Below are positions 14,249 through 56,352 of a DNA stretch of 64,000 nt, one piece after another. This DNA is from Mycolicibacterium chubuense NBB4. Its GTDB lineage: Bacteria > Actinomycetota > Actinomycetes > Mycobacteriales > Mycobacteriaceae. Numbering within the stretch: position 1 is the first letter of the stretch; each line of letters begins with the position of its first letter. The stretch spans positions 5,332,001-5,396,000 of the forward strand of contig NC_018027.1 of NCBI RefSeq assembly GCF_000266905.1, given 5' to 3'. The position numbers and the translations under genes were made by a program. The notes beneath the pieces were generated by a model that saw only the letters and a list, made by a program, of their open reading frames with translations, was not told the origin of the DNA and did not search any database.

Positions 14249-15121
14249 ATGCGGACCGGAATGCGGATCGGAACGGTGTTCCCCCAGACCGAGCTCGGCG
14301 GCGACCCGGGGGCCCTGCGGGCCTACGGCGAGCGCGTCGAAGAGCTCGGCTACGCCCACGTGCTGGCCTACGACCACGTGCTGGGCGCCGACCCCGCGAC
14401 GCACCGGGGCTGGGCCGGTCCCTACGACATCGACACGACGTTCCACGAACCCCTCGTGATGTTCGGCTACCTCGCCGCCGTCACGACCACGCTGGAGCTC
14501 GTCACCGGGGTGGTCATCCTGCCGCAGCGGCAGACGGCGCTGGTCGCCAAGCAGGCCGCGGAGGTCGACCTGCTCAGCGGGGGCCGCCTCCGCTTCGGCG
14601 TCGGCCTGGGCTGGAACGCCGTGGAGTACGAGGCGCTCGGCGAGGATTTCACCAACCGCGGCAGGCGCTCCGAGGAGCAGATCGAGCTGCTGCGGCGACT
14701 GTGGACGCAACGCTCGGTCACCCTCGACGGTCGCTACCACCGCGTCACCGGCGCGGGCATCGCACCGCTTCCGGTGCAGCGGCCCATCCCGGTGTGGATC
14801 GGCGCCGCCTCCGCGCGCGCCTACGCGAGGGTGGGACGGCTGGCCGACGGCTGGTTCCCCATGATCGGGCCGGGCCCCGCCCTCGACGAGGCGAGGGCCG
14901 CCGTAGCTGCGGCGGCGCGCGACGCGGGCCGCGATCCCGCCACGATCGGGATGGAGGGACGCGTGAGCTGGCAGCACGACGACGATCGCGCGCTCGCCGG
15001 GATCCGCGACTGGGCCGACCTCGGCGCGACACACCTGTCGATCAACACCATGGGCGCGGGCCTGCGCAGCGTCGACGACCACCTCGCGGTCCTGGAGACG
15101 CTCGCGGCGGGATTGTCCTAG
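14249..15121 (+). CDS. LLM-class F420-dependent oxidoreductase
   Basis: A 290-residue luciferase-like TIM-barrel protein. Family cues are [23 protein letters not shown] at the start, [46 protein letters not shown] around residues 75-120, and [22 protein letters not shown] near 190. In mycobacteria, proteins of this subgroup mostly use F420. The substrate is unknown. The gene is divergent from the HAD/GH65 pair, and the ATG at 14249 is the probable start. Its TAG stop lies in a CCTAGG palindrome that also supplies the stop of the convergent rhomboid gene. Confidence 0.88.
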
Positions 15122-42007: not shown

Positions 42008-42772
42008 CTACTTGATCGTGTATCCGCCGTCGATAAGCAGGTCCGCGCCGGTGATCATCGCGGCGGCGTCGGAGGCGAGGAAGACCGCGGCTGCGGCGAT
42101 CTCGTTCGGATAGGCGAAACGGCCGACGGGGATGAGCTGTTTGAGCGCCTCACCGCGGGGACCGTCCCAGGCCTTGTGACCGAGTTCGGTCAGCACCACG
42201 GTCGGGGAGATGGTGTTGACCCGCACTCCGCGGCCGCCCCACTCGGCCGCCAGCACCTTCGACACTCCGACGACCCCGAACTTCGACGCACAGTAGGCGA
42301 CGTGCTGGTCCAGGGCCACGGTCGCGGCCTGCGAGGCCATGTTGACGATGGCGCCGTGGCCGGCTGCCAGCATGTGGCGCCCCACCACCTGGCACACCAG
42401 GAACGTGCCCTTGAGGTTCACGTCGACGGTCTTGTCCCAGGCCTCGAGGGAGAGGTCCTCGGCGGGCGCGAGCATGACGATCCCCGCGCTGTTGACCAGG
42501 ATGTCGATCCCTCCGAACGCCGCGAGGACGTCGTCGACCGTCGCCGTCACCGATGCGGGATCGGCGACGTCGCAGGCGAACCCGCGGCTGTCGTTGCCGA
42601 CCGCCGCCGCCGTGCCCGTCGCGGCGTCCCCGTTGAGGTCGACGACCGCCACCCGTGCGCCCTTGACGGCGAACGCGGACACGATCGCGGCGCCGATGCC
42701 CGACCCGCCACCGGTCACCATGGCCGTCTTGCCGTTCAGCGGGAAGTCCAGATCGACTGTGGGTTCGGTCAT
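42008..42772 (-). CDS. Polyol dehydrogenase, SDR family (threitol/arabitol type)
   Basis: A 254-residue SDR. The cofactor motif is TGGGSGIGAA near residue 20-29, with VVDLNGD (NAD-type acid). NSAG, NMASQAAT and YCASKFGV provide the catalytic Asn/Ser/Tyr/Lys. The C-terminal stretch SPTVVLTELGHKAWDGPRGEALKQLIPVGRFAYPNEIAAA, ending LLIDGGYTIK, is very like that of D-threitol dehydrogenase (DthD) and Listeria GolD-type polyol dehydrogenases. It should oxidise a sugar alcohol to a ketose with NAD+. A GAAAGGA ribosome site precedes it, and the gene follows the SorC gene by 36 bp, so the two are probably one operon. Confidence 0.85.
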   Translation of the reverse strand: MTEPTVDLDFPLNGKTAMVTGGGSGIGAAIVSAFAVKGARVAVVDLNGDAATGTAAAVGNDSRGFACDVADPASVTATVDDVLAAFGGIDILVNSAGIVMLAPAEDLSLEAWDKTVDVNLKGTFLVCQVVGRHMLAAGHGAIVNMASQAATVALDQHVAYCASKFGVVGVSKVLAAEWGGRGVRVNTISPTVVLTELGHKAWDGPRGEALKQLIPVGRFAYPNEIAAAAVFLASDAAAMITGADLLIDGGYTIK

Positions 42773-42809
42773 GTCAAGTGGTGTCCTTTCACTCGTCGGG
42801 GTGGAGCGC

Positions 42810-43733
42810 TCAATCGAGCACTGCGGCGGCGACCTCGGTGTCGGTCACCACACCGGACACCAGACCGGACCGCAGCACCGCGCGGGTCGCGGCGATCTTC
42901 TCGGCGCCGGCGCAGATCGCGACGACGGTGGGGATGGCCCGCAGGCCGGCCTCGGTGATTCCCATGCGGCGTTCGTCGAGCCCGGCCACTCGATTACCGT
43001 CCGCGTCCAGCAGCAGGCCGCATGTCTCGGCACGTACTCCGGCGCCGTACAGCGCTGCCGCTTCCTCCTCGGGCACCGACGTGTAGACCTGCGACGCCTC
43101 GGCGGTCCAGCCGCCCACGGACACGAGCGCACAGGTCACCCGGGCGTGGTTGGCGAAGGCGGCCTCGATGGGCGGGGTGCTCTTCAGACTGGCGGCGGTG
43201 CGCGCATCGGCGACGACGTACGGCGCATACAGCGGCCACGAGCGGCCCCCGGTGACCTCGCTGATGCGCCGGGTCAGGTCCGCGCCGTTGGACGTCAGGC
43301 CACCCGCCAGACCGGTCAGCTGGACGACGTCGCACTGGGGCAGCGCGTGCACATAGGGCGCGATCCGGGTCATGGTGCGGCCGCAGTCGATGCCGATCAC
43401 GTCGCCCTCGCGCAGGATCGACTGCAGCAGGTCGGCCATCGCCTTCGCGACGGCCTCCACGCGGTCGGCGGTGTTCTTCGATTCCGCCGCAACGGCATAC
43501 GCGTGCTGCAGCGAGTAGCGCTTCTGCAGCGCGGTCGACAGCTCCACGTCGATCGAGCCGGGATCGTGGATCGTGATCTCGACCATGCCGGATTCGAGGG
43601 CCTCCTCGAGGATGCGGGCCACCTTGAACCTCGACAACCCGAACTCTTCGGCGATCTCGACGCGGGTCCGCCCCTCGAGGTAGTAGCGGCGGGCGATCAC
43701 GGCGCGCTGGAACAAACCGTCGGGTCCCATCAC
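42810..43733 (-). CDS. SorC/DeoR-type sugar-binding transcriptional regulator
   Basis: A 307-residue SorC-family regulator. The N-terminal helix-turn-helix is RAVIARRYYLEGRTRVEIAEEFGLSRFKVARILEEALESGMVEI (residues ~8-52). The C-terminal sugar-phosphate-binding domain includes VIGIDCGRTMTRIAPYV, GGLTSNGADLTRRI, VSVGGWTAEA and the GVRAETCGLLLDADG segment. Family members sense phosphorylated sugar intermediates. It is divergent from the SIS/kinase/ABC operon, with several GCTCA/TGAGC half-sites between them, which suggests control of both directions. Confidence 0.9.
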   Translation of the reverse strand: MMGPDGLFQRAVIARRYYLEGRTRVEIAEEFGLSRFKVARILEEALESGMVEITIHDPGSIDVELSTALQKRYSLQHAYAVAAESKNTADRVEAVAKAMADLLQSILREGDVIGIDCGRTMTRIAPYVHALPQCDVVQLTGLAGGLTSNGADLTRRISEVTGGRSWPLYAPYVVADARTAASLKSTPPIEAAFANHARVTCALVSVGGWTAEASQVYTSVPEEEAAALYGAGVRAETCGLLLDADGNRVAGLDERRMGITEAGLRAIPTVVAICAGAEKIAATRAVLRSGLVSGVVTDTEVAAAVLD

Positions 43734-43762
43734 GCCCTCCCTCTCCCGTGGTTTCGAACTGC

Positions 43763-43802
43763 GCTCATATGAGCAGATCGGCTTGACATATGAGCATAGC
43801 TC
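43763..43802. promoter_or_regulatory. Candidate SorC operator array (GCTCATATGAGC and half-sites)
   Basis: The divergent gap holds a perfect 12-bp palindrome GCTCATATGAGC (43763-43774), a second CATATGAGC (43787-43795) and GAGC-ATA-GCTC (43792-43802). Two CATATGAGC sequences are thus spaced about two helical turns apart. The array lies 30-70 bp upstream of the SorC start and 85-125 bp before the SIS gene, where a bidirectional operator is expected. Confidence 0.6.
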
Positions 43803-43886
43803 AGAGAATGATCCACATCACAAGCAATCAAACGAGCGCCTCGTCACACAGACGAGCGCCACCGACCCGGAAGCGGAAGGCGACCG

Positions 43887-44525
43887 ATGCAGCGTCAGGA
43901 CGTCGAGTTGGCGACGCTCGCCGGCTCCGTCCTGTCCCGCGAGTCGGCCGCGGTCGCAGCGCTCGCCGGAACCGCGGAGGCGGGCATCGTCGAGGTCGCG
44001 CACCGCGTCCTGGCGATCCCGGGCAAGGTGGTGACGACGGGATCGGGGACCTCGGGCATCATGGCCGAGCGGCTCGCCCACCTGCTGTCGGTCTGCGGGA
44101 CCCCCGCGGTGTACCTCCCGGCGATGGACGCCCTGCACGGCGCCATGGGCGCCATCACCGCATCCGATCTGGTGATCGCGATCAGCAAGACCGGCCGGTC
44201 GAGCGAGATGACGGACCTGGTGCACCGGCTGGTCGCGCGCGGTGTGGACGTCGTCGCGGTCACCGAGTGTCCGGGCTCCCCCTTCGCCGCGGCGGCCACG
44301 ACGGTGACCGCGTTGCCGGCGACGGCGCGCGAGGCCGACCCCGGGGACATGATCGCGCTGGCCAGTACGTTGGCGGTCGGCGCGTGGGGAGACGCCCTCG
44401 CCGTGGTCGCGATGGCGTTGCGCGGGCACACACTGCACGACGTGGTCGACAGCCATCCCGCGGGCGGCGTCGGTCACCGCGGTCACCGGCCCGGCGACGA
44501 ATCAGCCCCGGTGGTGCGGGTATGA
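43887..44525 (+). CDS. SIS-domain sugar-phosphate isomerase (KdsD/GutQ-like, no CBS domains)
   Basis: A 212-residue single SIS domain. GKVVTTGSGTSGIMAERLAHLLS is at residues ~47-70 and the sugar-phosphate Ser motif lies in VIAISKTGRSSEMTDLV near 97-113. PAMDALHGAMGAI resembles the conserved AEALHGDLG segment of arabinose-5-phosphate isomerases. GutQ, a member of that family, sits in the E. coli glucitol operon, so a ketose/aldose-phosphate isomerase role in polyol use is plausible; phosphohexuloisomerase is an alternative. The ATG at 43887 has a GGAAGG ribosome site. It overlaps the kinase start by 4 bp (ATGA). Confidence 0.82.
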   Translation: MQRQDVELATLAGSVLSRESAAVAALAGTAEAGIVEVAHRVLAIPGKVVTTGSGTSGIMAERLAHLLSVCGTPAVYLPAMDALHGAMGAITASDLVIAISKTGRSSEMTDLVHRLVARGVDVVAVTECPGSPFAAAATTVTALPATAREADPGDMIALASTLAVGAWGDALAVVAMALRGHTLHDVVDSHPAGGVGHRGHRPGDESAPVVRV

Positions 44526-46015
44526 CTGCGAATCCTGTTGTGCTGGGGGTGGATTCGTCCACGCAGTCGTGCAAGGTGGAGGTTCGCGAACTGGCCACCG
44601 GACGGTTGCTGGCCCGCGCCGCCGCCCCGCACCCCGAGGCCTATCCGCCGGTCAGCGAGCAACATCCGCGCGCGTGGGTGGCCGCGTTCGTCACCGCAGC
44701 GCGCGAGGCGCTGGCCCGCTGTGCCGATCCGGTCGGAGTCCGCGCGATCGCCGTCGCCGCGCAGTGTCACGGGCTGGTGCTGCTCGACGAGCTGGGCGAG
44801 CCGGTGCGGCCCGCGAAGCTGTGGAACGACACCACCGGCGCGGGTGAACTGGCCCGGCTGGCGCAGTGGATCGGGTGGGACACCTGGCTGCACCGCATCG
44901 GGTCGACCCCCACGGCCGCGTTCACCATCGCGAAACTGGCCTGGATCGCCGAGCACGAACCCGCAGTGCTCGACCGTGCGGCCGCCGTCCTGCTGCCGCA
45001 CGACTTCCTCACGTACTGGCTGACCGGAGAGGCGGTCACCGACCGCTCCGACGCCTCCGGCACCGGGTACTTCGATTCGGTTGCCGCAGAATGGATTCCG
45101 CAGTACCTGGACCTCGCGGCCGGGCCCAGGGACTGGGCGGCCCTGCTTCCCACGGTGCTGGAGCCGACCGAGCCGGCCGGCACCGTGCGGTCCGGCGCCC
45201 TCACCGAGCTCGGACTCGAGGGCGCCGACATCGTCGTCGCGCCCGGCGGCGGAGATCAGCACGCCGCGTATCTCGGCCTCGGCCTCGACGACGGTGACCA
45301 GTACTTCGGCATCGGCACCTCCGGCGTCATCGCCACCTCGTCCCGCGAACCCGTGTACGACCCGGCCGGGATGGTCGACGGGGTTTGCGATCTGACGGGT
45401 GGGTATCTCCCTCTCGTCAGCACACTCAACGCCGCGCGGGTCGGCGACATCGCGGCACGACTGCTCGGCACCGACCTCGCCGGGCTCGCGGATCTCGCGC
45501 TGTCCGCGGCCGGCACCGTCGGGCCGGTGCTGGTGCCGTTCCTCGACGGCGAACGCAAGCCGGACCGTCCGCACGCCCGCGGTGCGCTGGCCGACATCAC
45601 CTCGCACACCACCCGCGCAGAGCTCGCCCGCGCCTTCGTCGAGGGCCCGCTGCTGTCCCTGATGACCGGCCGCGACCGGCTGGCGGACTGCGGGGTCCGG
45701 CTCGACGGCGCCGCGGTCGCCGTCGGCGGCGGCGCCAAATCTCCTGCGACCCTTGCGCTGCTGGCCGATCTCCTCGACGACGAGGTGCTCGTCCTCGACG
45801 CCGAGGAGGCGACGGCACGAGGGGTGTGTGTACAAGCGGCCGCGGTCGCGGGTGGCGCCGATGTCGCCGGGCTCGTCGACCTCGCCAAGGCGTGGCGGCC
45901 CGACGTGCGCCTGCGGGTCGGTCCGCGCGATCACGGCCGGGACCTCTCGGCGCTTCGGGGCCGGTGGGCCGAACTCGCCGCGTCACCCGTCCTGGATTCG
46001 GCGGTGCCGAGGTGA
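44522..46015 (+). CDS. FGGY-family carbohydrate kinase (xylulokinase-like)
   Basis: A 497-residue kinase of two RNase-H-like domains. The N-terminal phosphate loop is GVDSSTQSCKVEV (residues ~8-20). QCHGLVLLDELGEPVRPAKLWNDTTGAGE matches the substrate/ATP region of XylB. VAPGGGDQHAAYLGLG, YFGIGTSGVIATSS and VAVGGGAKSPATLALLADLLD form the C-terminal ATPase motifs. It should phosphorylate a ketose produced from the imported polyol, with D-xylulose or a close analogue as the most obvious guess. It is coupled to the SIS gene, and its TGA overlaps the next small ORF start by one base. Confidence 0.9.
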   Translation: MTANPVVLGVDSSTQSCKVEVRELATGRLLARAAAPHPEAYPPVSEQHPRAWVAAFVTAAREALARCADPVGVRAIAVAAQCHGLVLLDELGEPVRPAKLWNDTTGAGELARLAQWIGWDTWLHRIGSTPTAAFTIAKLAWIAEHEPAVLDRAAAVLLPHDFLTYWLTGEAVTDRSDASGTGYFDSVAAEWIPQYLDLAAGPRDWAALLPTVLEPTEPAGTVRSGALTELGLEGADIVVAPGGGDQHAAYLGLGLDDGDQYFGIGTSGVIATSSREPVYDPAGMVDGVCDLTGGYLPLVSTLNAARVGDIAARLLGTDLAGLADLALSAAGTVGPVLVPFLDGERKPDRPHARGALADITSHTTRAELARAFVEGPLLSLMTGRDRLADCGVRLDGAAVAVGGGAKSPATLALLADLLDDEVLVLDAEEATARGVCVQAAAVAGGADVAGLVDLAKAWRPDVRLRVGPRDHGRDLSALRGRWAELAASPVLDSAVPR

Positions 46016-46131
46016 TGCGCATCGAAGACGTTGCGCCGCTGCTCATCACGGCAGGGGCCGAATCGATGGTCGTGGGGCGGGCGCTGCTGACACCGGAGCA
46101 GGCTCGCCCATTGGAAAGGAGTGCCCTATGA
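46015..46131 (+). CDS. Small ORF (38 aa) embedded in the polyol operon
   Basis: The ATG shares its A with the kinase stop (TGATG), and the TGA overlaps the dehydrogenase ATG (ATGA). The frame is therefore coupled on both sides. The peptide begins MRIEDVAPLLITAGAES and continues with VVGRALLTPEQARP. Third-position GC is high until the 3' part, which contains the downstream GGAAAGGAG ribosome site. AGAESMVVGRALL resembles the phosphate-binding end of TIM-barrel epimerases or hexulose-phosphate synthases, so it may be a remnant of such a gene, or only a translation-coupling spacer. There is no independent evidence of function. Confidence 0.45.
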   Translation: MRIEDVAPLLITAGAESMVVGRALLTPEQARPLERSAL

Positions 46132-47165
46132 CGGCAACAGCCCAACCCACACCCGCCACCATGCGGGCCAGCGTGATGACGGGCGTCGGTGAGCTCCGGA
46201 TCGAGGACCGACCGGTGCCGGCGCCCGGGGAGCACCAGGTGCTCGTGGAGGTCGCCGCCGTCGGCGTGTGCGGATCGGACGTGCACTACTACCGGCACGG
46301 GCGCATCGGTGACTTCGTCGTCGACGCACCGATGATCCTCGGGCACGAGATGTCCGGACGCATCGCCGCCGTCGGGCCGGGCGTGGACCCGCAACGGGTG
46401 GGCCAGCGGGTGGCGGTGGAACCGCAGCATCCGTGCCGGCGCTGCCCGCAATGCAAGGCGGGCCGGTACAACCTGTGCCCGCACATGGAGTTCTACGCCA
46501 CCCCGCCCGTCGACGGCGCGTTCTGCCGGTACGTGCTGATCGACGACGACATGGCACACCCGGTGCCCGACTCGATCTCCGACGACGCCGCCGCTCTTCT
46601 CGAGCCGCTCTCGGTGGCGATCGCCACGATGCGCAAGGCGAACGTGCGGCCCGGCTCGTCCATCCTGATCGCGGGCGCGGGGCCGATCGGCGTGATCTGC
46701 GCGCAAGCGGCGCGCGCGTTCGGCGCGGCCCGGATCGTGGTCACCGACCTCGTTCCCTCGCGCCGCGACATGGCCCTGCGATTCGGTGCCACCGACGTGC
46801 TCGACCCGACGGCCGTCGACGTCTCGGCGATCGAGCCGGTCGACGCGTTCGTCGACGCCACCGGCGTGCCCGCGGCCGTGGTCAGCGGAATCAAGGCCGT
46901 CGGCCCCGCCGGACATGTCGTGCTCGTCGGCATGGGCGCCGACGAATACGCGTTGCCGGTCAGCCACATCGCGAACTTCGAGATCACCGTGACCGGCGTG
47001 TTCCGGTACACCGACACCTGGCCCGCCGCAATCCATCTGGTGGCCAGCGGCGCCGTCGACCTCGACGGGATGGTCACCGGTCGCTACGACCTCGAACACG
47101 TCGGCGAGGCGCTCGACAGCGATTCGGACCCGGCCAGCCTCAAGTCGATCGTGATGCCCTCATGA
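46128..47165 (+). CDS. Zinc-dependent polyol dehydrogenase (sorbitol/xylitol dehydrogenase-like)
   Basis: A 345-residue MDR enzyme. CGSDVHYYRHGRIGDFVVDAPMILGHEMSG (residues ~45-74) is the sorbitol/xylitol dehydrogenase pattern with catalytic-zinc Cys, His and Glu. QHPCRRCPQCKAGRYNLCPHM contains the four structural-zinc cysteines, and GAGPIGVICAQAARAFGA is the NAD site near 170. It should oxidise a polyol at C2 to a ketose. The start is set by the GGAAAGGAG ribosome site and the ATGA overlap with the preceding small ORF. It overlaps the ABC ATPase start by 4 bp. Confidence 0.9.
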   Translation: MTATAQPTPATMRASVMTGVGELRIEDRPVPAPGEHQVLVEVAAVGVCGSDVHYYRHGRIGDFVVDAPMILGHEMSGRIAAVGPGVDPQRVGQRVAVEPQHPCRRCPQCKAGRYNLCPHMEFYATPPVDGAFCRYVLIDDDMAHPVPDSISDDAAALLEPLSVAIATMRKANVRPGSSILIAGAGPIGVICAQAARAFGAARIVVTDLVPSRRDMALRFGATDVLDPTAVDVSAIEPVDAFVDATGVPAAVVSGIKAVGPAGHVVLVGMGADEYALPVSHIANFEITVTGVFRYTDTWPAAIHLVASGAVDLDGMVTGRYDLEHVGEALDSDSDPASLKSIVMPS

Positions 47166-48703
47166 CCGCACCGAAAGAAAAGCTGCTGCGGTGCAGCGAC
47201 ATTCACAAGAGCTTCGGCGGGGTGCCCGTGCTCGAGGGGATCAGCCTCGAGCTCGAACCCGGCACCGTCACCGCGCTGGCGGGCGAGAACGGGGCGGGCA
47301 AGTCGACGCTGATGAAGATCATCAGCGGGCAGTACAGCGCCGACCGCGGCACCGTCGCCGTCGGCGGCACCGCGCTCACCCACGGCAGCACCAGGGATGC
47401 GGTCAGGCACGGCGTCGCGATCGTGCCGCAGGAACTGGCCTCCATCGAGGACATGACGGTCTACGAGAACCTGTTCGTCGGGCGGGAACTCACGTTCGGG
47501 CCGTTCCTGAACCGGCGCGCGATGATCGACGAGGCGCGGGACGCGCTCGCCGTGTTCGGGGTCGACATCAACCCCTCGGCCAAGATGAGCAGCCTTCCGG
47601 TGGGCCTGCGCCAGATCGTGGAGATCGTCAAGGCCGCCCGCACCGGCGCACGGGTGGTGATGCTCGACGAGCCCACCTCCGCGATCTCCGAACGTGAGGT
47701 GGAGGGTCTCTACAAGGTGGTGCGCCAACTGCGCGAGCACGGCGTCGCGATGGTCTACACCACCCACAAGATGGCGGAGATCCGGGCCATCGCCGACCGG
47801 GTCGTCGTGCTGCGCGACGGCGGGCTGATCCTCGACAAGCCGATCGCCGACGTCTCCGACGACGACATCGTCACCGCGATGATCGGCCGGGAACTCGACG
47901 CGCTGTTCCCCGACCGTCCGACACCGGGCACCGAACCGGTGCTGACTGTGCGCAACCTGCAGGTCGAGGGCGCCTCGGGGCCGGTGTCGTTCACGGTCAA
48001 TGCCGGCGAGATCGTCGGCCTGGCCGGGCTGGTCGGTGCCGGGCGCACCGAGTTGCTCGAGGCGATCTTCGGCGCCCGGACCACGACGTCGGGCGACGTC
48101 ACGGTGCGCGGCAAGGTCGTCAAACGCAACAACCCCGCCGCGGCGATCAGTGCGGGTATGGCGATGGTGCCCGAGGACCGCAAGCTGTCGGGGGTGGTGC
48201 TGTCGATGAGCGTGCTGGACAACGGATCACTGCCGCGGCTGTCGTCGTTCTCGATCGCCGGCTGGCTGCGCGGGAAGGCCAGGAACAAGGCGGTGTCGGA
48301 CGTGATGTCCTCGGTGCGCCTGAAGACGCGCGGGCTGAGTCAGGAAGTGGGCACGCTGTCGGGCGGCAACCAGCAGAAGGTGGTGCTGGCGCGCTGGCTC
48401 ACCGGTGACGTCAACGTGCTGCTGCTCGATGAGCCGACGCGCGGCGTCGACGTCGGCGCCCGCAGCGAGATCTACCGCATCGTCACCGAATTCGCCGCGG
48501 GCGGCATGGCGGTGCTGATGGCGTCGTCGGACATGCCCGAGATCGTCGGACTGTCGCACCGCGCCTTCGTCATGCGCGGCGGCACGTTCGTCGGAGAACT
48601 CGACCGCGACGCGCTCGACCATCCCGAGGTCCAGGAATCGGTGTTCCGTCTGGCCACCGCGCTCGACGAGAAGCCAACGACCAAGCAGCAGGAGGCATCA
48701 TGA
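47162..48703 (+). CDS. Sugar ABC importer ATP-binding protein (RbsA/XylG type, two NBDs)
   Basis: A 513-residue fused ATPase. In the N-terminal domain, Walker A GENGAGKST is at ~41-49, the signature is relaxed (SSLPVGLRQIVEI) and Walker B is VVMLDEPTSAI. In the C-terminal domain, the P-loop is degenerate (GLVGAGRTEL), with the usual signature LSGGNQQKVVLARWL and Walker B VLLLDEPTRGVDVG. The asymmetry is normal for CUT2 sugar importers. It overlaps both neighbours by 4 bp (ATGA) in the operon dehydrogenase, ATPase, permease, receptor. The expected substrate is a polyol or monosaccharide. Confidence 0.93.
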   Translation: MTAPKEKLLRCSDIHKSFGGVPVLEGISLELEPGTVTALAGENGAGKSTLMKIISGQYSADRGTVAVGGTALTHGSTRDAVRHGVAIVPQELASIEDMTVYENLFVGRELTFGPFLNRRAMIDEARDALAVFGVDINPSAKMSSLPVGLRQIVEIVKAARTGARVVMLDEPTSAISEREVEGLYKVVRQLREHGVAMVYTTHKMAEIRAIADRVVVLRDGGLILDKPIADVSDDDIVTAMIGRELDALFPDRPTPGTEPVLTVRNLQVEGASGPVSFTVNAGEIVGLAGLVGAGRTELLEAIFGARTTTSGDVTVRGKVVKRNNPAAAISAGMAMVPEDRKLSGVVLSMSVLDNGSLPRLSSFSIAGWLRGKARNKAVSDVMSSVRLKTRGLSQEVGTLSGGNQQKVVLARWLTGDVNVLLLDEPTRGVDVGARSEIYRIVTEFAAGGMAVLMASSDMPEIVGLSHRAFVMRGGTFVGELDRDALDHPEVQESVFRLATALDEKPTTKQQEAS

Positions 48704-49740
48704 CCACCGACGTCGACACCAGCGCGCAGCCGCCCGGCCCGTCGGCTGCCCCGACCGTCGCCTCGCCGATCACCGGCGGGCCGGTGAAACTGTTTTCCCG
48801 GCAGTGGTTCTCGGGAATCCTGCTGCGCTACTCGATGGTGATCGTGGTCCTGCTGGTGATCGCGTACTTCAGCTATCGCAGCGCGCGCTTCTCCACCCCC
48901 GACAACCTGGTCACGATCCTCGTCGCCGCGGCCCCCTTCGCGCTCATCGCGCTGGGCCAGACGCTGGTCATCCTCACCGGGGGCATCGACCTGTCCGTCG
49001 GCAGCGTGATCGCGGTGTCGGCGATGGCGGCGGCGGCGACCGCCAAGGCCAATCCCGGCCAGGTCTGGATGACCGTGCTGGTCGCCATGGTGGTCGGGCT
49101 CGCGGTCGGCTGCCTGAACGGAATCCTGGTGTCGCGCATCAACGTTCCACCGTTCATCGCGACGTTGGGCACGCTGACGGCCGGCTCCGGCGCGGCCTAC
49201 GTGATCGGCGGCGGCGCGCCCATCAACGGGCTGCCGCCCGAATTCGGCTCGATCGCCAACACGAAGATCCTGGGCCTGCAGATCCCGGTGCTGCTGATGA
49301 TCGTGGGCATCATCGGGCTGGCCATCGTCATGAAGCGCACCACCTACGGCATGCGCGTCTACGCGGTGGGCGGCAACCGCAACGCCGCCGAGATCGCGGG
49401 CATCAACGCCAAGAACGTGTTGTTCAGCGTGTACGCGATCTCCGGTCTGCTCGCCGGGCTGTCGGGCGTCATGCTCGCCTCGCGCGTGATCTCGGGTCCG
49501 CCGAACCTGGGGCAGGGGTACGAACTCGACGCCATCGCCGCGGTCGTGATCGGCGGCGCGAGCCTGATGGGCGGGCGCGGCAGCATCTGGGGCACGGCCC
49601 TGGGCCTGTTCATGATCATGACGCTCAACAACGGCCTGGACATCCTCGTCGTGCCGGCCTACTGGCAGGACGTCATCAAGGGTGTCCTGATCGTCGCCGC
49701 GGTCGCGGTCGACGTGTGGTCCACCAGGAGGCGCACCTGA
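48700..49740 (+). CDS. Sugar ABC importer permease (RbsC type)
   Basis: A 346-residue inner-membrane permease with about ten hydrophobic segments and a ~40-residue hydrophilic N-terminus. CUT2 family signatures are [29 protein letters not shown] (residues ~82-110), the [24 protein letters not shown] loop, and [22 protein letters not shown] near 280-301. It forms a homodimeric pore with the ATPase encoded just upstream, and the ATGA overlap shows coupling. Confidence 0.93.
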
Positions 49741-49813
49741 CCTCAACCGGAGACGAGTCGTCGCAGCACCTTTCACCGTCGAAGCACGGCAACCGAAAAG
49801 AGAGAGAGAACCC

Positions 49814-50863
49814 ATGAGATTGATGACCAAGATCGCGGCGATGGCCTCGGTGGGCGTGGTCGGGGTCGCGCTGACCGCGTGCGGTGCGGGCGACACCTCG
49901 GCCAACAAGGACACCAAGCGCATCGGTGTGTCGGTGTACGACATGAGCTCGTTCATCACCGCGGGCAAGGAGGGCATGGAGGCCTACGCCAAGGACAACA
50001 ACATCGAACTTGTGTGGAACTCCGCCAATCTCGACGTGTCCACCCAGGCCAACCAGGTCGACTCGATGGTCAACCAGGGCGTCGACGCCATCATCGTGGT
50101 TCCCATCCAGGCGGATTCGCTCGGCCCGCAGGTCGCGACCGCCAAGTCGAAGGGCATCCCGCTGGTCGCGGTGAACGCGGCGCTGAACAATCCCGACGTG
50201 GCCGCCAGCGTGCAGCCCGACGACGTGGCCGCCGGCGAGCAGGAGATGCAGATGATGGCCGACCGCCTCGGCGGCAAGGGCAACATCGTCATCCTGCAGG
50301 GCCCCCTCGGGCAGTCCGGTGAGCTCGACCGCACCAAGGGCATCAACAACGTGCTGGCGAAGTACCCCGACATCAAGGTGCTGGCCAAGGACACGGCGAA
50401 CTGGAAGCGCGACGAGGCCGTGAACAAGATGAAGAACTGGATCTCCGGCTTCGGGCCGCAGATCAACGCCGTCGTCTCCGAGAACGACGACATGGGCCTC
50501 GGTGCGCTGCAGGCGCTCAAGGAGTCCGGCCGCAACGACGTGCCGATCGTCGGCATCGACGGCATCGAGGACGGTCTGAACGCGGTGAAGAGCGGCGAGT
50601 TCATCGGCACCTCACTGCAGAACGGCACCGTCGAACTGTCCGCAGGTCTCGCCGTGGCGAACGCGCTCGCCAAGAAGGAGCAGGTGAACACGAAGCCGGT
50701 CTACGTCATGCCGGCGATCACCAAGGACAACGTCGACGTCGCGATCCAGCATGTGGTGACCGAGCGTAAGAAGTTCCTCGACGGGCTGTCCCAGCTGACC
50801 GCGCAGAACCTCAAGACGGGCGACATCGCCTACGAGGGGATCCCCGGCCAGAAGCAGCCCTGA
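49814..50863 (+). CDS. Sugar/polyol-binding lipoprotein of the CUT2 importer
   Basis: A 349-residue receptor. The signal peptide with lipobox VALTAC (Cys near residue 23) makes it an exported lipoprotein. The mature domain is RbsB-like (periplasmic binding protein type I): [54 protein letters not shown], and [20 protein letters not shown]. This is the family to which the M. smegmatis threitol receptor belongs, but the ligand cannot be read here. It is separated from the permease by 73 bp with an AGAGAGAGAG purine ribosome site, perhaps allowing higher expression. A terminator hairpin follows. Confidence 0.9.
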
Positions 50864-50877
50864 CGCAGCACCCCGCA

Positions 50878-50910
50878 CGAAGGCCGGTCGCATCCCGCGG
50901 CCGGCCTTCG
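50878..50910 (+). terminator. Hairpin terminator of the polyol uptake operon
   Basis: Perfect 10-bp arms (50878-50887 and 50901-50910) around a 13-nt loop, starting 15 bp after the receptor stop codon. A short T-run (TTTTTG) follows about 20 bp further on. Confidence 0.6.
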
Positions 50911-50961
50911 CCGTGTCGGAGGGGGCGGATTTTTGTCGGACCCCTCTGCGAGGATGGTGGC

Positions 50962-52251
50962 ATGTCCTCGCCCGCAACATCTTTGGCTCACTGCGAGCGT
51001 CTCGAGGTGTTGTTCGGGGAGTTGGCCGAGCTGACCGGCCAGCGCAATGCGATCGACGGCCGCGTCGTGGAGATCGTGGCCGAGATCGACCGGGACGAAC
51101 TGTGGGCCGCTGCGGGTGCACGGTCGGTGGCGGGGTTGGTCGCGTGGAAGGCCGGGATGTCACCGGCCAACGCGGAGGTGATCGCCACCGTGGCGCACCG
51201 GTCCGAGGAGTTCCCCCGCTGCACCGAAGGCCTTCGCGAGGGCCGGCTCTCCCTCGACCAGGTCGGCGCGATCGCCAAACGGGCCGCCGACGGCTCCGAC
51301 GAGCACTACGCCGAGTTGGCCGCCTCGGCCACGGTGACCCAGCTGCGGTTCGCCCTCAAACTCGCCCCCAAGCCGAAACCCGAACCCAGGCCCGAACCCG
51401 AGGTGGAGCCGGAGCCTGACCACACACCGGAGCCGGTGCCGGCGCCGGAGCCCTCGATCAGCAAGTCCACCGACGGCGAGTGCACCACGTGGCGGATCAC
51501 CCTGCCCGCACTGGAGGCCGCCAAGTTCGAGGCCGCGCTGGCCTCGCACCAGGACGCGCTGATCACCGACTGGAAGCGCGACCACGACACCGAGGCCGCC
51601 GACGGCTCGGGGCAGCGGCCACCCATGCCGAGCACCGCGGATGCGTTCCTGGCGCTGGTCGAGGCGAGCTGGGACGCCGAGGCCAGCCGCCGCCCGCACG
51701 GGCAGCACACCACCGTGGTCGCGCACCTCGACCTCGACAAGCCGGTGGCCGCCCTGCACCTGGGTCCGCTGCTCTCCGACGCCGACCGGCGATACCTGAC
51801 CTGCGACGCCACCTGCGAGGTCTGGTTCGAACGCCACGGCCAGCCGATCGGCGCGGGCCGCACCACCCGCACCGTCAGCCGGCGGCTGCGCCGCGCCCTC
51901 GAACACCGCGACCGCACCTGCGCCGTGCCCGGCTGCGGGGCCACCCGCGGGCTGCACGCCCACCACATCCGGCACTGGGAAGACGGCGGCCCCACCGAGA
52001 TGTCCAACCTGGTGCTGCTCTGCCCGTACCACCACCGGGCCCACCACCGCGGCCTGATCACCATCACCGGGCCCGCCGACAGCCTCGTCGTCACCGACGG
52101 CGCCGGCCGCGCCCTGAGCAGCGCATCGCTGGCCCGCACCCCGACCACACCGCCACCCGCGGTGGCACCCTACAAAGGCCCCACCGGCGAACGCGCCGAC
52201 TGGTGGTGGTACGAACCCTTCCAACCCCCACCACCACCAAGCGCCAACTAG
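50962..52251 (+). CDS. 13E12-repeat-type DUF222/HNH endonuclease-like protein
   Basis: A 429-residue member of the large actinobacterial 13E12/REP family. The DUF222 domain covers residues ~10-300 and is interrupted by a Pro/Glu linker (PKPKPEPRPEPEVEPEPDHT) near 135-160. The C-terminal HNH motif is CAVPGCGATRGLHAHHIRHWEDGG followed by NLVLLCPYHHRAHH, with both zinc-type Cys pairs and the catalytic His pair intact. Function is unproven; the family is multicopy and related to mobile or self-splicing-type nucleases. It sits alone between two convergent polyol operons, and no flanking inverted repeats are seen. Confidence 0.9.
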   Translation: MSSPATSLAHCERLEVLFGELAELTGQRNAIDGRVVEIVAEIDRDELWAAAGARSVAGLVAWKAGMSPANAEVIATVAHRSEEFPRCTEGLREGRLSLDQVGAIAKRAADGSDEHYAELAASATVTQLRFALKLAPKPKPEPRPEPEVEPEPDHTPEPVPAPEPSISKSTDGECTTWRITLPALEAAKFEAALASHQDALITDWKRDHDTEAADGSGQRPPMPSTADAFLALVEASWDAEASRRPHGQHTTVVAHLDLDKPVAALHLGPLLSDADRRYLTCDATCEVWFERHGQPIGAGRTTRTVSRRLRRALEHRDRTCAVPGCGATRGLHAHHIRHWEDGGPTEMSNLVLLCPYHHRAHHRGLITITGPADSLVVTDGAGRALSSASLARTPTTPPPAVAPYKGPTGERADWWWYEPFQPPPPPSAN

Positions 52252-52898
52252 CGGCCTCCGGTCGCTTGCTGGCCGTACCCGGCGAGCAGGCGTCCGACGG
52301 CGGCGATCTCCTCGTCGTCCAGCACGCGCACGGGTGCCCCGCTGGCCATCGCCCGCAGCTGCACGTCACACACGTACTCGAGGTAGGGCACCAGGTTCAG
52401 CACCTTCGGCAGCGCCGTGCCGGCGAGCACCGCACCGTGGTTGCCCATCAGCGCTGCGGACCGATCGCGCAGGGCTGCGGTCACGTTGTCGGCCAGCTGC
52501 TGCGTGCCGAAGGTGGCGTACGGCGCGACCCGGATGCCGCCGCCGAACAACGCGGTGTAGTAGTGCGACGCCGGAACCTCGTCGACGACCGTCGACAGCG
52601 CGGTGGACGCCGGCGCGTGGGTGTGCACGACGGCCGAATGCTCCGACGACCGGTAGACCGCAAGGTGCAGCGCCAGCTCGCTGGACGGTGCCAGCGCGGC
52701 GTCGACGACGTTCCCGTCGAGATCGTGAATGCCGACGTCGGCCGCCGACATCGCCTCGTAGTCAACGCCGCTCGGTGAGATGACGACGACGTCGTCGACG
52801 CGGATCGACACGTTGCCCGCGGTGCCCACGACAAGGCCGGAGCGGCTGAGGAACCGGCAGGCGTCGACGACCTGCTGGCGTTCGGTGTGCAGTCTCAT
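52248..52898 (-). CDS. Class II aldolase/adducin-family protein (fuculose/ribulose-phosphate aldolase-like)
   Basis: A 216-residue zinc aldolase. GLVVGTAGNVSIRVDDVVVISPSGVDYEAM binds phosphate. SSELALHLAVYRSSEHSAVVHTHAPASTALS supplies the acid and the two zinc His (HTH), and LMGNHGAVLAG supplies the third His. It resembles FucA/AraD-like enzymes: either aldol cleavage of a ketose 1-phosphate to dihydroxyacetone phosphate and an aldehyde, or 4-epimerisation. The retro-aldol Tyr is not certain. The ATG at 52898 overlaps the dehydrogenase stop by 4 bp. Last gene of the DeoR-kinase-dehydrogenase-aldolase operon. Confidence 0.87.
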   Translation of the reverse strand: MRLHTERQQVVDACRFLSRSGLVVGTAGNVSIRVDDVVVISPSGVDYEAMSAADVGIHDLDGNVVDAALAPSSELALHLAVYRSSEHSAVVHTHAPASTALSTVVDEVPASHYYTALFGGGIRVAPYATFGTQQLADNVTAALRDRSAALMGNHGAVLAGTALPKVLNLVPYLEYVCDVQLRAMASGAPVRVLDDEEIAAVGRLLAGYGQQATGGR

Positions 52899-53932
52899 GG
52901 CTCGAGGATGTACTTCGACCCGCGGCCTGCGGCCATGTCCTCCAGGCTGGGCACCAGCGCCTCCAGCGGCCTGCGCTCGGTCACCAGCATCGACCCGTCG
53001 ACCTTCCTGCTGGACAACAACTCCACCGCGGTGCGGACGTAGTTGGGGGTGTGGTGGAAGACGCCCTTGAGGGTGTACTCCTCGTAGTGCATCGCGCTCG
53101 AGTCGACGGAGAACGGGGCGCCCTTCGGCGTCCCGCCGAACAGCACCGCCGTCGCCCCGGGCCGCAGGGTGCGCACGGTCTGCTCCCACACCTGCGGCAG
53201 GCCGACCGCCTCGATACCGACGTCGGCGCCGCGGCCGTGCGGCGTGCGCCGCTTGATCACCGCCACGCGGTTCTCGAAGTCCGAGACCTCCGACAGGTCA
53301 ACGGTTTCCACGGCGCCGGCCAGCAGCGCCTGCTGCAGCCGCCACGGCGACTGGTCGACGGAGATGACGTTCGCGCCGCGCAGCGTGGCGAGCCGCACGA
53401 ACATCAGACCGATGGGGCCGGCCCCGTGCACCACGACGGTGTCGCCGAGTTCGATGCCGGTCTCGGCCATGCCGTGCACCACCGTCGCCAGCGGCTCGAG
53501 CGGTGCGGCGTCGGCGAAGTCGAGGTCGTCGGGCAGTTGGTAGGTGTTCCGCGCGACGATAGCGGCCGGAATGACGACCTCTTCGGCGAACGCTCCGTTG
53601 AGGAATTCGAGGTTCTCGCAGAGGCTTTCGCGGTTGCGGATGCACGCCCAGCAGTGCCCGCACGGCACCGTGTTGGCGGCGGTGACGCGGTCGCCGACGG
53701 CGAACCGGTCCACGCCGTCCCCGACGGCGGTGACCACGCCCGCGAACTCGTGACCGAAGCGCGAAGGCAGGGTCGGGAAGAGTTTCGGGTGGCCGCGGCG
53801 GAACGACTTGAGGTCCGTGCCGCACGTCGCGGCCGCGCGGACCTCGACCAGCACCTCCCCGGGTGCCGGCTCGGTCGATCTGACGTCCTCCAGCCGTAAT
53901 TCGCCGGGGCCGTAGAACATCGCCGCTCTCAT
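52895..53932 (-). CDS. Zinc-dependent alcohol/polyol dehydrogenase
   Basis: A 345-residue MDR enzyme. Catalytic zinc ligands lie in ATCGTDLKSFRRGHP and RFGHEFAG, and the structural-zinc loop is TVPCGHCWACIRNRESLCENLEF with four cysteines. The NAD(P) site is VVHGAGPIGLMFVRLATLRGA near residue 168. It resembles threonine/butanediol/polyol dehydrogenases and is distinct from the paralogue in arm 1. It overlaps the kinase and aldolase genes by 4 bp each, so it should act on a substrate or product shared with them. Confidence 0.9.
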   Translation of the reverse strand: MRAAMFYGPGELRLEDVRSTEPAPGEVLVEVRAAATCGTDLKSFRRGHPKLFPTLPSRFGHEFAGVVTAVGDGVDRFAVGDRVTAANTVPCGHCWACIRNRESLCENLEFLNGAFAEEVVIPAAIVARNTYQLPDDLDFADAAPLEPLATVVHGMAETGIELGDTVVVHGAGPIGLMFVRLATLRGANVISVDQSPWRLQQALLAGAVETVDLSEVSDFENRVAVIKRRTPHGRGADVGIEAVGLPQVWEQTVRTLRPGATAVLFGGTPKGAPFSVDSSAMHYEEYTLKGVFHHTPNYVRTAVELLSSRKVDGSMLVTERRPLEALVPSLEDMAAGRGSKYILEP

Positions 53933-55452
53933 CGTTCTCCTCGCTTCTCGTCATTCAGTGGCAGGTCGTGCAGCGTGTGCAGCAGGTCGCGGGTCTGGGC
54001 GTAGACGCGCTCGTACACCGACCTCATTTGCCGGTAGGTGGCGGCGGCGTCCGGGTGCGGCGTCACAACGGTGTCCGTCCTGTTCACCGCCGATGCCGCG
54101 GCGGGCAGCGTGTCGTGTGCGCCTATCGCGGTCAAGGCGATCGCGGCCGCGCCGAGCGCGCTGACCTCCCCGGACGCGCACACTTCCAGCGGCCGGTCGA
54201 AGACGTCGGCGAGAATCTGTGTCCAGAGCGGACTTCGGGCGCCGCCGCCCATCGCACGGATCACCTCCACGCGGCCCCCGCGGGCACCCTCCAACCCGTC
54301 GAGTTGCAGGCGCAGTTCCAGCGCGATGCCCTCGAGGAGGGATCGGTAGAAGTGGGCCCGGGTGTGGCAGCCCTGCCAGCCCAGCGTCACGCCGGAGGCC
54401 TGGCCGTCCCAGTGCGGCGTCTGGGCGGCGTTCCAGTACGGCAGCGTGATCAGCTTCTCGGCGCCGGCAGGAAGCGCCGCGGCCTCGCGCTCGAGCCTCG
54501 GGTCGGGCGCCCCCGCGAGTTCGGGGTCGCCGAACTCCTGACGGAACCACGTCGACAGATAGGTGCCCGACGAGCTGAACGTCTCCACGGTGGACTGGCC
54601 GGGCATGGCCGAGATCATCGACCGGTACGCGCGCGCCGGAACATAGGACAGCGTCTCGCTGCCGATCACCACGGCGGTGCCGAGCACCAGGTAGGCGGCT
54701 CCCGGGTCGGTCACGTTCAGCCCGATGCCCGCGGCCTGACCGTCGCCGGTACCCGCGATCACGACGACGTCGCGACTCACACGCCAGTCGTCGGCGATCT
54801 CGGGGCGCAGCGGGCCGAGCGAGGCGCCGCTGGGCACGAGGTCGGGGAGTTGACGCCGCTGCAGGCCGGCGAGCTCGAGCAACTCGTCGCTGTAGTCGCC
54901 GGTGGTCTGGTCGATCAGGGCCAGCGGATCGACCGAGGCGGTGCTCGAGATCCAGCGCCCGGTCATGGCGTGCACCAGATACGAGTGCACATCGGCGATG
55001 CGGCGGCACCGGGCCATGGTGTCGGGCTCGCGATCGCGCAGCCAGAGCAGCTTGTACAGCCCGGGGGTGATGTCGGCGGGCTTGCCCGACAGCAGTTCGA
55101 CGCGCTCGGTGCCGTAGGTCCGCACCTCGGAGGCGGCCCGGCCGTCCATCCACAGGATCGCCGGCCGGATCGGGGTCCCGCCCTCGTCGAGGCAGACGAA
55201 GCTCTCGCGCTGATGGGTGACGCAGACCGCGGCGACGGCGCGCGGGTCGGGAATCTCGTTGAGCGCGTTGCGGATCGCGGTATCGGTTGCGGTCCACCAC
55301 TGGGATCCGTCCTGTTCGAACCAGTGCGGGGCCGGGCTGCGGGTCTCCAGTGCCCGGGTTCCGGTCCCGACCACCTTGCCGTCGGCGTCGACGACGATCG
55401 CCTTGGCGGCGGTCGTCGAGCAGTCGACCGCGATGACGAGAGGCGAAGTCAC
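53929..55452 (-). CDS. FGGY-family carbohydrate kinase
   Basis: A 507-residue two-domain sugar kinase. IAVDCSTTAAKAIVVDADG is the N-terminal phosphate loop. VCVTHQRESFVCLDEGGTPIRPAILWMDGRAASEV, VIAGTGDGQAAGIGLN, LGTAVVIGSETL and IRAMGGGARSPLWTQILADVFD are FGGY motifs. It groups by eye with glycerol/erythritol/fuculose-type kinases rather than with the XylB-like kinase of arm 1. The GTG at 55452 overlaps the DeoR stop by 4 bp and has GGAGG about 8 nt upstream. It probably phosphorylates the ketose or polyol later cleaved by the aldolase. Confidence 0.9.
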   Translation of the reverse strand: MTSPLVIAVDCSTTAAKAIVVDADGKVVGTGTRALETRSPAPHWFEQDGSQWWTATDTAIRNALNEIPDPRAVAAVCVTHQRESFVCLDEGGTPIRPAILWMDGRAASEVRTYGTERVELLSGKPADITPGLYKLLWLRDREPDTMARCRRIADVHSYLVHAMTGRWISSTASVDPLALIDQTTGDYSDELLELAGLQRRQLPDLVPSGASLGPLRPEIADDWRVSRDVVVIAGTGDGQAAGIGLNVTDPGAAYLVLGTAVVIGSETLSYVPARAYRSMISAMPGQSTVETFSSSGTYLSTWFRQEFGDPELAGAPDPRLEREAAALPAGAEKLITLPYWNAAQTPHWDGQASGVTLGWQGCHTRAHFYRSLLEGIALELRLQLDGLEGARGGRVEVIRAMGGGARSPLWTQILADVFDRPLEVCASGEVSALGAAAIALTAIGAHDTLPAAASAVNRTDTVVTPHPDAAATYRQMRSVYERVYAQTRDLLHTLHDLPLNDEKRGER

Positions 55453-56282
55453 GGGCGCGGGCCTCCTTCGGATTCTGTTGCGCGCGCGGGTAGATCGGCG
55501 ATGACGACGTTGGCTCCGCCGTCTTCGAGGCGTTGCCGCTCCTCGGGGTCGATGCCGGCGTCCACGACGACGGCGTCGAAGACCACCACGTCGCAGATTC
55601 GGTGGATGGCGCGGCGCGCGACCTTGGTGTGGTCGATGAGCAGTACGCACAACTCCGCGCTCTCCATGAACGCGCGCTTGAGTTCGGCGGCGGCACTGGA
55701 GGGATGGAAACACATGCCGCGCGACACGGCGGGCACGGACATGAACAGCACGTCGTAGTGCATGTCACGCAGCGCCCGCGTGGACTGCGGTCCGACGAAC
55801 GAGGAGAACTCGGGCACGAAGTCCCCGCCGATGGCGTTGAGCCGCACCCGCGGATCCGCCGACAACTCGTTGATGGCGGGCAGGAAGTTGGTCACCACCG
55901 TCAGCGGTGCGTGCTGCAGCAGCCTCGGCAGCACGTGCAGGGCGGTGGTGCTGTCGTCGAGGGCGACGGCTGTCATGTCGACCCGGCCTGCCGCCCAGGC
56001 GAAGCCGGTGTTCGCCACCGCCTGCTTCTCGGCGAGGTTCAGGGCCTTGCGCAGCTCGATGTTGCGTTCGAACGCCTCGCTCGGCGGCGCCTCGGCACCG
56101 GAGCGCACCTTGCGCAGCATGCCCTTCTCGTGGAGATGGTCCAAATCGCGGTGGATCGTCATCACGCTCACCCCGAACTGATCGGCGAGTTCGTCGATGC
56201 GGGCCGTGCCCCTGGCTTTGACGAACTCGGCGATCTCGGCGCGACGATGCGCGTGCCCACTGGCCCGCTGCGGTGCCGACAC
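55449..56282 (-). CDS. DeoR/GlpR-family transcriptional repressor
   Basis: About 277 residues. The N-terminal winged helix-turn-helix is RRAEIAEFVKARGTARIDELADQFGVSVMTIHRDLDHLHEKGMLRKVRSGA, the DeoR-family signature. The C-terminal DeoRC sensor has AVALDDSTTALHVLPRLL, LTVVTNFLPAINEL and VLLIDHTKVARRAIHRICD. The effector is usually a phosphorylated sugar made by the operon kinase. The GTG at 56282 is chosen because GAAGGAGG lies 7 nt upstream; the frame is open to 56315. It is the first gene of the operon, with a palindrome 52 bp upstream suggesting autoregulation. Confidence 0.9.
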   Translation of the reverse strand: MSAPQRASGHAHRRAEIAEFVKARGTARIDELADQFGVSVMTIHRDLDHLHEKGMLRKVRSGAEAPPSEAFERNIELRKALNLAEKQAVANTGFAWAAGRVDMTAVALDDSTTALHVLPRLLQHAPLTVVTNFLPAINELSADPRVRLNAIGGDFVPEFSSFVGPQSTRALRDMHYDVLFMSVPAVSRGMCFHPSSAAAELKRAFMESAELCVLLIDHTKVARRAIHRICDVVVFDAVVVDAGIDPEERQRLEDGGANVVIADLPARATESEGGPRP

Positions 56283-56333
56283 TGACCGGCCTCCTTCGTT
56301 CGAGGCCCCGAACATATCACCGAAGATCGCAAA

Positions 56334-56352
56334 ATAACACTAAACGTGTTAT
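56334..56352. promoter_or_regulatory. Candidate DeoR operator (ATAACAC-N5-GTGTTAT)
   Basis: A perfect 7-bp inverted repeat with a 5-bp spacer in an AT-rich island, 52 bp upstream of the DeoR GTG and 18 bp beyond the stop of the convergently read membrane protein gene. AT-rich TGTTA-type palindromes are typical of DeoR-family operators. Confidence 0.65.

Follow-up and report, generated by a model that had tools for sequence, protein, structure and literature searches.

Probable modular organization of a mycobacterial polyol importer locus, with the apparent remnant of a lost epimerase gene

We have analyzed a 64,000-nucleotide stretch of the genome of Mycolicibacterium chubuense NBB4 (genome G000, contig C3, positions 5332001–5396000). 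This stretch is termed the window, and feature coordinates below are window positions. It contains a locus (42008–56352) in which genes for a polyol importer and for dehydrogenases lie beside two sets of catabolic genes. Comparison of its sequence with those of related loci makes it highly probable that the locus is modular and that an epimerase gene has been lost from it. On balance we favor a polyol importer and dehydrogenase core carrying two separable, separately regulated modules, which would provide alternative routes and not one pathway. One mycobacterial polyol importer would then be served by exchangeable downstream routes, with deletion remnants recording repeated loss.

The importer core and its two modules

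Related loci were collected by a receptor scan, in which the best 80 of 125 candidates were retained, corresponding to 78 distinct loci, and their gene order was compared. A core recurs in many of the 78, comprising a short-chain dehydrogenase/reductase (SDR) of the DthD type, a SorC regulator, a zinc polyol dehydrogenase (DH1) and the ATPase, permease and receptor of a CUT2 importer. In the relatives module 1, made up of a SIS isomerase, a XylB-like kinase (kinase 1) and a gene that we call X, is sited between SorC and DH1. Module 2 is a four-gene operon of a DeoR regulator, a kinase (kinase 2), a second dehydrogenase (DH2) and a class II aldolase; we refer to this operon as arm 2, and to the importer side as arm 1.

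A tree of DH1, ATPase, permease and receptor (37 rows, calculated by a quick method) places the window and nine other loci in a single clade with a support of 100. Among the 25 mycobacterial rows outside this clade SIS, kinase and X are found together in 19, X alone in L004 and L006, the kinase alone in L044 and L046, and none of the three in L016 and L038. Within the ten-member window clade X is intact only in L013, and SIS and kinase are present in three members (the window, L007 and L013). Arm 2 adjoins the importer in eight of the ten, and L010 and L015 are without either module. SIS is absent from seven of the clade rows, five of which retain arm 2.

The two arms appear to be under separate regulators, as had been proposed in an earlier note on this DNA. 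The palindrome GCTCATATGAGC (43763–43774), lying between the divergent genes of arm 1, is a candidate SorC operator. It is the sole exact copy in the 6.34-Mb genome, which has two further sites with one mismatch; in this genome-wide scan arm 2 was found to have no exact copy and neither of the one-mismatch sites, and shared regulation of both arms is thus rejected. The palindrome is present in all ten members of the window clade and in none of 28 other SorC loci, 19 of which have GCACATATGTGC, as if operator and regulator had changed together. On the DeoR side the inverted repeat ATAACAC-n5-GTGTTAT (56334–56352), read from the sequence upstream of the DeoR gene, is a candidate operator, and the motif at this place differs in the relatives.

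The association of arm 2 with the core was examined in 198 genomes of the genus (at least 95% complete, with only the best candidates per genome scored). DH1 is present at 76% identity or more in 33 of these, and a further 17 have a match at 56–61% only. The aldolase was found in 12 genomes, X in 21 and SIS in 20, all inside the 33 with DH1. Arm 2 is therefore tied to the core non-randomly, since the aldolase occurs in the survey only in DH1 genomes, and the pairing of the two arms suggested by the earlier note is borne out to this extent; were the genomes independent, the chance of finding 12 of 12 would be 6.6e-11, but this independence does not hold. Arm 2 lies within 10 kb of DH1 in six of the 12 aldolase genomes and away from the core in the other six. 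Among the DH1 genomes X is present in one of six with arm 2 near DH1, in six of six with a distant arm 2 and in 14 of 21 without arm 2. Of 22 survey genomes with either SIS or X, 19 have both.

A second set, which is not independent of the first (ten of the 12 survey aldolase genomes are also in it, by coordinates), comprised the 42 genomes reached through the receptor loci. The aldolase is present at 81% identity or more in 18 of these, adjoining the importer in eight and located elsewhere in ten. The surroundings were examined for seven of those ten copies and in two more genomes. All nine distant copies have the order DeoR-kinase-DH2-aldolase, and in none of the nine was a core ATPase, permease or receptor found in the fetched stretch. 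In L100 and L102 another xylulokinase-like gene adjoins the distant arm 2.

Gene X and its remnants

Gene X of the relatives is, to judge from its sequence and a structure model, a divergent member of the ribulose-phosphate-3-epimerase family. The products from L013 and L012 exceed the Pfam cut-off for PF00834 and that from L062 is marginally under it (20.9 of 21.1); all three fall far below the NCBIfam rpe cut-offs. The structure model has a pLDDT (predicted local distance difference test) of 90.6, and its best solved matches are ribulose-phosphate 3-epimerases. In 24 of 26 sequences there is no change to the HxD, VH and DGG motifs, the exceptions being L004 and L006. In these two loci X (L004:5677-6303 and L006:5574-6188) is present without SIS and kinase, and the metal-ligand motifs are altered; small SIS and kinase matches lie upstream of X in L004.

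In the window a 38-codon open reading frame (ORF; 46015–46131, plus strand) overlaps the stop of kinase 1 and the start of DH1. This ORF appears to be a C-terminal remnant of a deleted gene X. It aligns to codons 192–217 of the X gene of L013 with a score of 92, the highest of 300 shuffles reaching 34, and to two other X genes with scores of 66 and 60 (shuffle maxima 38 and 34). A tblastn search with X13 matched residues 194–226 here at 67%. No match to an intact X elsewhere in G000 was found at E 1e-10.

Other loci carry comparable traces. L002 has a fusion of SIS residues 1–21 with X codons 204–218 (score 44, shuffle maximum 36), and in L008 fragments of SIS, kinase and X all remain. L007 is a weaker case: codons 76–91 of the L013 X match with a score of 44 against 38, the X of L036 matches at another place, and the X of L012 gives no excess over shuffles. 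In L123 (genome G088) a fragment of kinase 1 (residues 288–318) is found at 14901, between SorC and DH1. Under Dollo counting four of seven losses of X fall in the window clade, which has 0.673 of the total branch length of 4.467 (nominal p 0.012); for SIS the figure is three of seven (nominal p 0.075). The remnants favor losses over loss and regain.

The SIS isomerase (43887–44525, plus strand) and kinase 1 (44522–46015, plus strand) of the window remain constrained although the epimerase is gone. Comparison with L007 gives nonsynonymous divergence dN = 0.088 for SIS and 0.085 for kinase 1, with proportions of synonymous differences pS = 0.34 and 0.38. Moreover, at positions where all the other rows agree, the window departs at just one of 104 (SIS) and one of 217 (kinase 1). 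For SIS and kinase 1 of the window, simple decay of the module is thus rejected; for the epimerase it is retained.

Every gene named in the earlier note was found as an uninterrupted ORF at the coordinates it had given. Its account overlooked two ORFs, the 38-codon remnant, missed because only the last codons of X survive in the window, and an ORF of the DUF222-HNH (13E12) type between both arms (50962–52251), with a 4-base overlap at the aldolase stop. A DUF222-HNH match between the arms is also found in L002 and L123, and not in L003, L005, L007, L008, L013 or L047.

The core of the window begins on the minus strand with the SDR (42008–42772), of the GolD/DthD family of D-threitol-type dehydrogenases (NCBIfam NF005309, 391.2 bits, above the cut-off of 286), and the SorC-type regulator (42810–43733; PF04198, 161.9 bits). 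On the plus strand are DH1 (46128–47165), whose closest solved structures are sorbitol dehydrogenase, ketose reductase, L-arabinitol 4-dehydrogenase and xylitol dehydrogenase, and a complete CUT2 importer set. The double ATPase (47162–48703) scores 516.2 bits with the AraG model (cut-off 689) and matches related sugar-ATPase models, the permease (48700–49740) scores 218 bits with the ribose permease model (cut-off 398) and matches related models, and the receptor (49814–50863) belongs to a polyol-binding family. Arm 2 occupies the minus strand, with the aldolase (52248–52898; PF00596), the zinc-dependent DH2 (52895–53932), kinase 2 (53929–55452) and the DeoR-family regulator (55449–56315; PF00455 and PF08220). 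Overlaps of 4 bases join SIS to kinase 1, DH1 to the ATPase, the ATPase to the permease, and all four genes of arm 2.

The isomerase is a SIS-only protein (PF01380, 61.7 bits) with 3fxa as its closest solved structure. With models of the GutQ/KpsF/KdsD group it stays below cut-off (scores of 99.7 of 481, 98.5 of 203.7 and 95.5 of 505 bits). It has GTSG where the KdsD-type motif has GKSG, so that Thr replaces Lys, as in 3fxa; GTSG is present in the window SIS and in 25 other aligned family members. The Lys of GxGKSG is presumably the catalytic residue in KdsD and GutQ. Both kinases are XylB-like FGGY proteins, and neither reaches the cut-off of 380.25 bits for the xylulokinase XylB model TIGR01312 (367.6 for kinase 1 and 301.4 for kinase 2). 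The aldolase, of the FucA/ribulose-1-phosphate aldolase type, scores 171.8 bits with RU1PAldHalo (cut-off 300) and 171.3 bits with PRK06833, both under cut-off, and 147.3 of the 400.25 bits required by the FucA model. Its FucA motifs GTAGN (25), PSSE (71), HTHA (92) and NHG (153) are intact, and we take these to be the phosphate, Glu and Zn-ligand sites of a FucA-type class II aldolase.

Homologs of module 2 are found further afield. A Kineococcus locus (L077) has aldolase, DH2, DeoR and kinase at 50%, 70%, 45% and 45% identity next to an importer of the same family, and importer, SDR and aldolase are found together on a Micrococcales contig of 6 kb (L053). G152, of the same genus as the window, has a diverged copy of arm 2 (aldolase 46%, DH2 68%), with no core genes in the fetched stretch. 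A survey of the order found the aldolase in six of 397 genomes, one of them outside the genus and without the rest of the module. A lone aldolase of 67% identity lies at L121:9196, in another family of the order, with none of the other module 2 genes in the stretch. DH2 was found in three of 393 genomes of the class, all of the same genus, which is too few for use. Homolog lists (the best 120 of 802 and the best 120 of 4600) give breadth, without gene context.

Possible routes through the two modules

Enzymes of the SIS and RpiB types interconvert aldoses and ketoses, those of the Rpe type invert a 2-keto sugar phosphate at C3, and FucA-type aldolases release dihydroxyacetone phosphate (DHAP) from ketose-1-phosphates. 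In the scheme that we propose, polyols would be imported and oxidized to ketoses by the SDR or DH1. In module 1 kinase 1 would phosphorylate a ketotetrose at C4, and SIS would isomerize D-erythrulose-4-phosphate to erythrose-4-phosphate. The lost epimerase may formerly have admitted the L-series, so that its loss, with the other two genes of module 1 kept, would narrow the substrate range. Kinase 1 and SIS would thereby be a possible non-homologous counterpart of DhaK and RpiB, leading from D-erythrulose to D-erythrose-4-phosphate. In module 2 kinase 2 would yield a ketose-1-phosphate (a pentulose being the likeliest ketose), which the aldolase would cleave to DHAP and glycolaldehyde. The scores of the aldolase models are divided; those of L077 (189.2 bits for the ribulose-1-phosphate aldolase model, 181.5 for the best fuculose-phosphate aldolase model) and L053 (168.6 and 144.5 bits) lean to the former, and a pentulose-1-phosphate is therefore favored. 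This assignment of module 2 has somewhat less than an even chance, and the C4 assignment of module 1 is doubtful. A specific triad of FGGY kinase, SIS isomerase and Rpe-like epimerase can be named, and its reactions are directly testable; the locus also offers a pairing of a tetritol-type cluster with an aldolase, of the kind that an extract of PMC10733421 asks to look for. If the reactions are correct, genes annotated in these genomes as xylulokinase, as arabinose-5-phosphate isomerase or as fuculose aldolase would have to be renamed.

A number of observations weigh against the modular scheme or the reactions assigned within it. The window clade shows only a modest surplus of X losses (four of seven, with SIS at three of seven), a test by independent pairs had two pairs only, and fewest-changes counting gives five changes for X with loss and regain formally allowed. 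Within the 42-genome set, SIS and X are retained in every one of the ten genomes whose aldolase is distant. Module 2 as such does not therefore displace module 1, and the idea that arm 2 does so wherever it is present is rejected. Kinase 1 scores nearest to xylulokinase. Sequence identity of the receptor (85.5% to each) fails to tell the two solved kinds of receptor apart, and is uninformative as a guide to the ligand. A DhaK/RpiB locus is retained elsewhere in G000, so that a second tetritol route would be redundant. Lastly, an extract of PMC12780249 describes two Curtobacterium isolates, from an L-erythrulose and a D-erythrose enrichment, for which transporters and kinases are called unknown; according to the same extract the isolate that was tested could use D-erythrose for growth but failed to grow on L-erythrulose. 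Another Curtobacterium (L062) carries the triad of kinase, SIS and X. Growth of Curtobacterium on L-erythrulose was accordingly dropped as support for the C4 assignment, and the data in that extract neither support nor refute it; in view of them we have moved the odds slightly from the C4 assignment toward the pentitol route described next.

The leading alternative, to which we give an appreciable chance well short of even, is that arm 1 serves pentitols. Oxidation of xylitol or arabitol would give D-xylulose, and phosphorylation of this xylulose-5-phosphate, with SIS (as an arabinose-5-phosphate isomerase) and the lost Rpe only balancing pentose phosphates. Xylulokinase is the best model for kinase 1, DH1 is closest to the sorbitol, xylitol and arabinitol dehydrogenases, and, in an extract of PMC10935332, 4RS3, a close receptor, was the source of ribitol or xylitol coordinates. 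However, xylulose-5-phosphate requires neither SIS nor X, yet they occur together in nearly all survey genomes that have either (19/22). Xylulose or ribulose would need no SIS, and the SIS protein has Thr for the Lys of the KdsD-type motif.

It is unlikely that arm 2 is an unrelated neighbor that landed by chance beside the importer, with its ketose made elsewhere. The nine distant copies lacking core importer genes in the fetched stretch, and the possession of its own DeoR regulator, are consistent with this. Against it are the presence of DH1 in all 12 survey aldolase genomes, its position next to the importer in eight of the ten clade members, and the homologous module beside the same importer family in Kineococcus.

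Arm 2 might alternatively cleave erythrulose-1-phosphate to DHAP and formaldehyde, as a C4 aldolase route. Membership of the SDR in the DthD family and the closeness of the receptor to MSMEG_3599 speak for this. According to an extract of PMC10733421, FucA of E. coli can join DHAP and formaldehyde to D-erythrulose-1-phosphate in vivo, and cleavage has been proposed for two erythritol users; erythrulose-1-phosphate as a substrate is chemically possible. Yet the L077 and L053 aldolases score higher with the ribulose-1-phosphate aldolase model, leaning to C5, and DH2 reaches only 107.1 of 512.9 bits with the mycothiol-dependent formaldehyde dehydrogenase model. We judge this cleavage to be quite improbable. 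In its fuller form, which is very improbable, arm 2 would be a natural D-erythrulose-1-phosphate formaldehyde-lyase route beside an FGGY-SIS-Rpe-like tetritol route of the relatives. A D-threitol-type polyol would give D-erythrulose, kinase 2 would phosphorylate this at C1, and DHAP and formaldehyde would result; in module 1 of the relatives the Rpe-like X would act as a tetrulose-phosphate 3-epimerase. If true, this would provide a dedicated gene for the EC 4.1.2.2 activity described in the 1950s.

The least probable reading, the earlier note's sequential action of SIS and aldolase in one undescribed route, has in its favor that in the window and L013 the two genes are uninterrupted and less than 10 kb apart, but is rejected on distribution: only two of 198 genus genomes have the pair so close (six of the eight with both have them further apart or on other contigs), SIS is missing from seven of ten clade rows while arm 2 stays beside the importer in eight, arm 2 is away from the core in half of the survey aldolase genomes, and in the window arm 1 has lost its third enzyme.

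Comparison with known systems

The modular organization that we favor can be set beside the tetritol pathway of Mycobacterium smegmatis, in which D-threitol, L-threitol and erythritol are reportedly used by means of a DhaK-type kinase and an RpiB-type isomerase (Huang et al. 2015). PMC5445326 and PMC8938411 mention that study in their reference lists only. The CUT2 receptor family and the DthD-type SDR are also found in the window, and the scheme proposed for it likewise places a ketose kinase before an isomerase. In contrast, the window has an FGGY kinase and SIS in place of the DhaK-type and RpiB-type enzymes, and its relatives carry an extra Rpe-like epimerase. No DhaK-type kinase is present at the locus, where both kinases are FGGY, and no RpiB-type isomerase, the isomerase being SIS. 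The absence of these two enzymes stated in the earlier note holds for the locus and not for the genome, where a DhaK-family gene (C3:3151400-3153145) and an RpiB-type gene (L107:9909-10391) lie together near 3.151 Mb, about 2.2 Mb from the window; the contrast of pathways is consequently valid for the locus only. The DhaK gene is present at 78% identity or more in 38 of the 42 genomes, in two as a partial or split match. In L020 a DhaK-family kinase and an isomerase resembling RpiB/DerI accompany the same importer and a DthD-family SDR.

The receptor is about 86% identical to each of MSMEG_3599 (4rsm), whose ligand we take to be D-threitol, and MSMEG_3598 (5hko and 4rs3), in support of the polyol uptake proposed in the earlier note. 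The window has a single receptor, whereas 18 loci (L009, L011, L012 and 15 others) have tandem receptors. The second is closer to 5hko in all 18 and the first is closer to 4rsm, or equal, in 17, which suggests a split of ligand range.

The enzymes of the two modules likewise share part of their character with known families. Intact X of the relatives has the fold and metal-ligand motifs of ribulose-phosphate 3-epimerase and AlsE, its identity to the epimerases that Foldseek listed being 15–23%, and the window copy is deleted. The window SIS shares the fold and general family of the KdsD/GutQ arabinose-5-phosphate isomerases and differs from them in having no CBS domain that we could find, in scores below their cut-offs, and in GTSG for GKSG. 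The aldolase has the domain and the GTAGN, PSSE, HTHA and NHG motifs of the L-fuculose-1-phosphate and ribulose-1-phosphate aldolases. It differs from these in falling under the curated NCBIfam cut-offs listed above, and in being tied to a kinase and a zinc dehydrogenase under a DeoR regulator.

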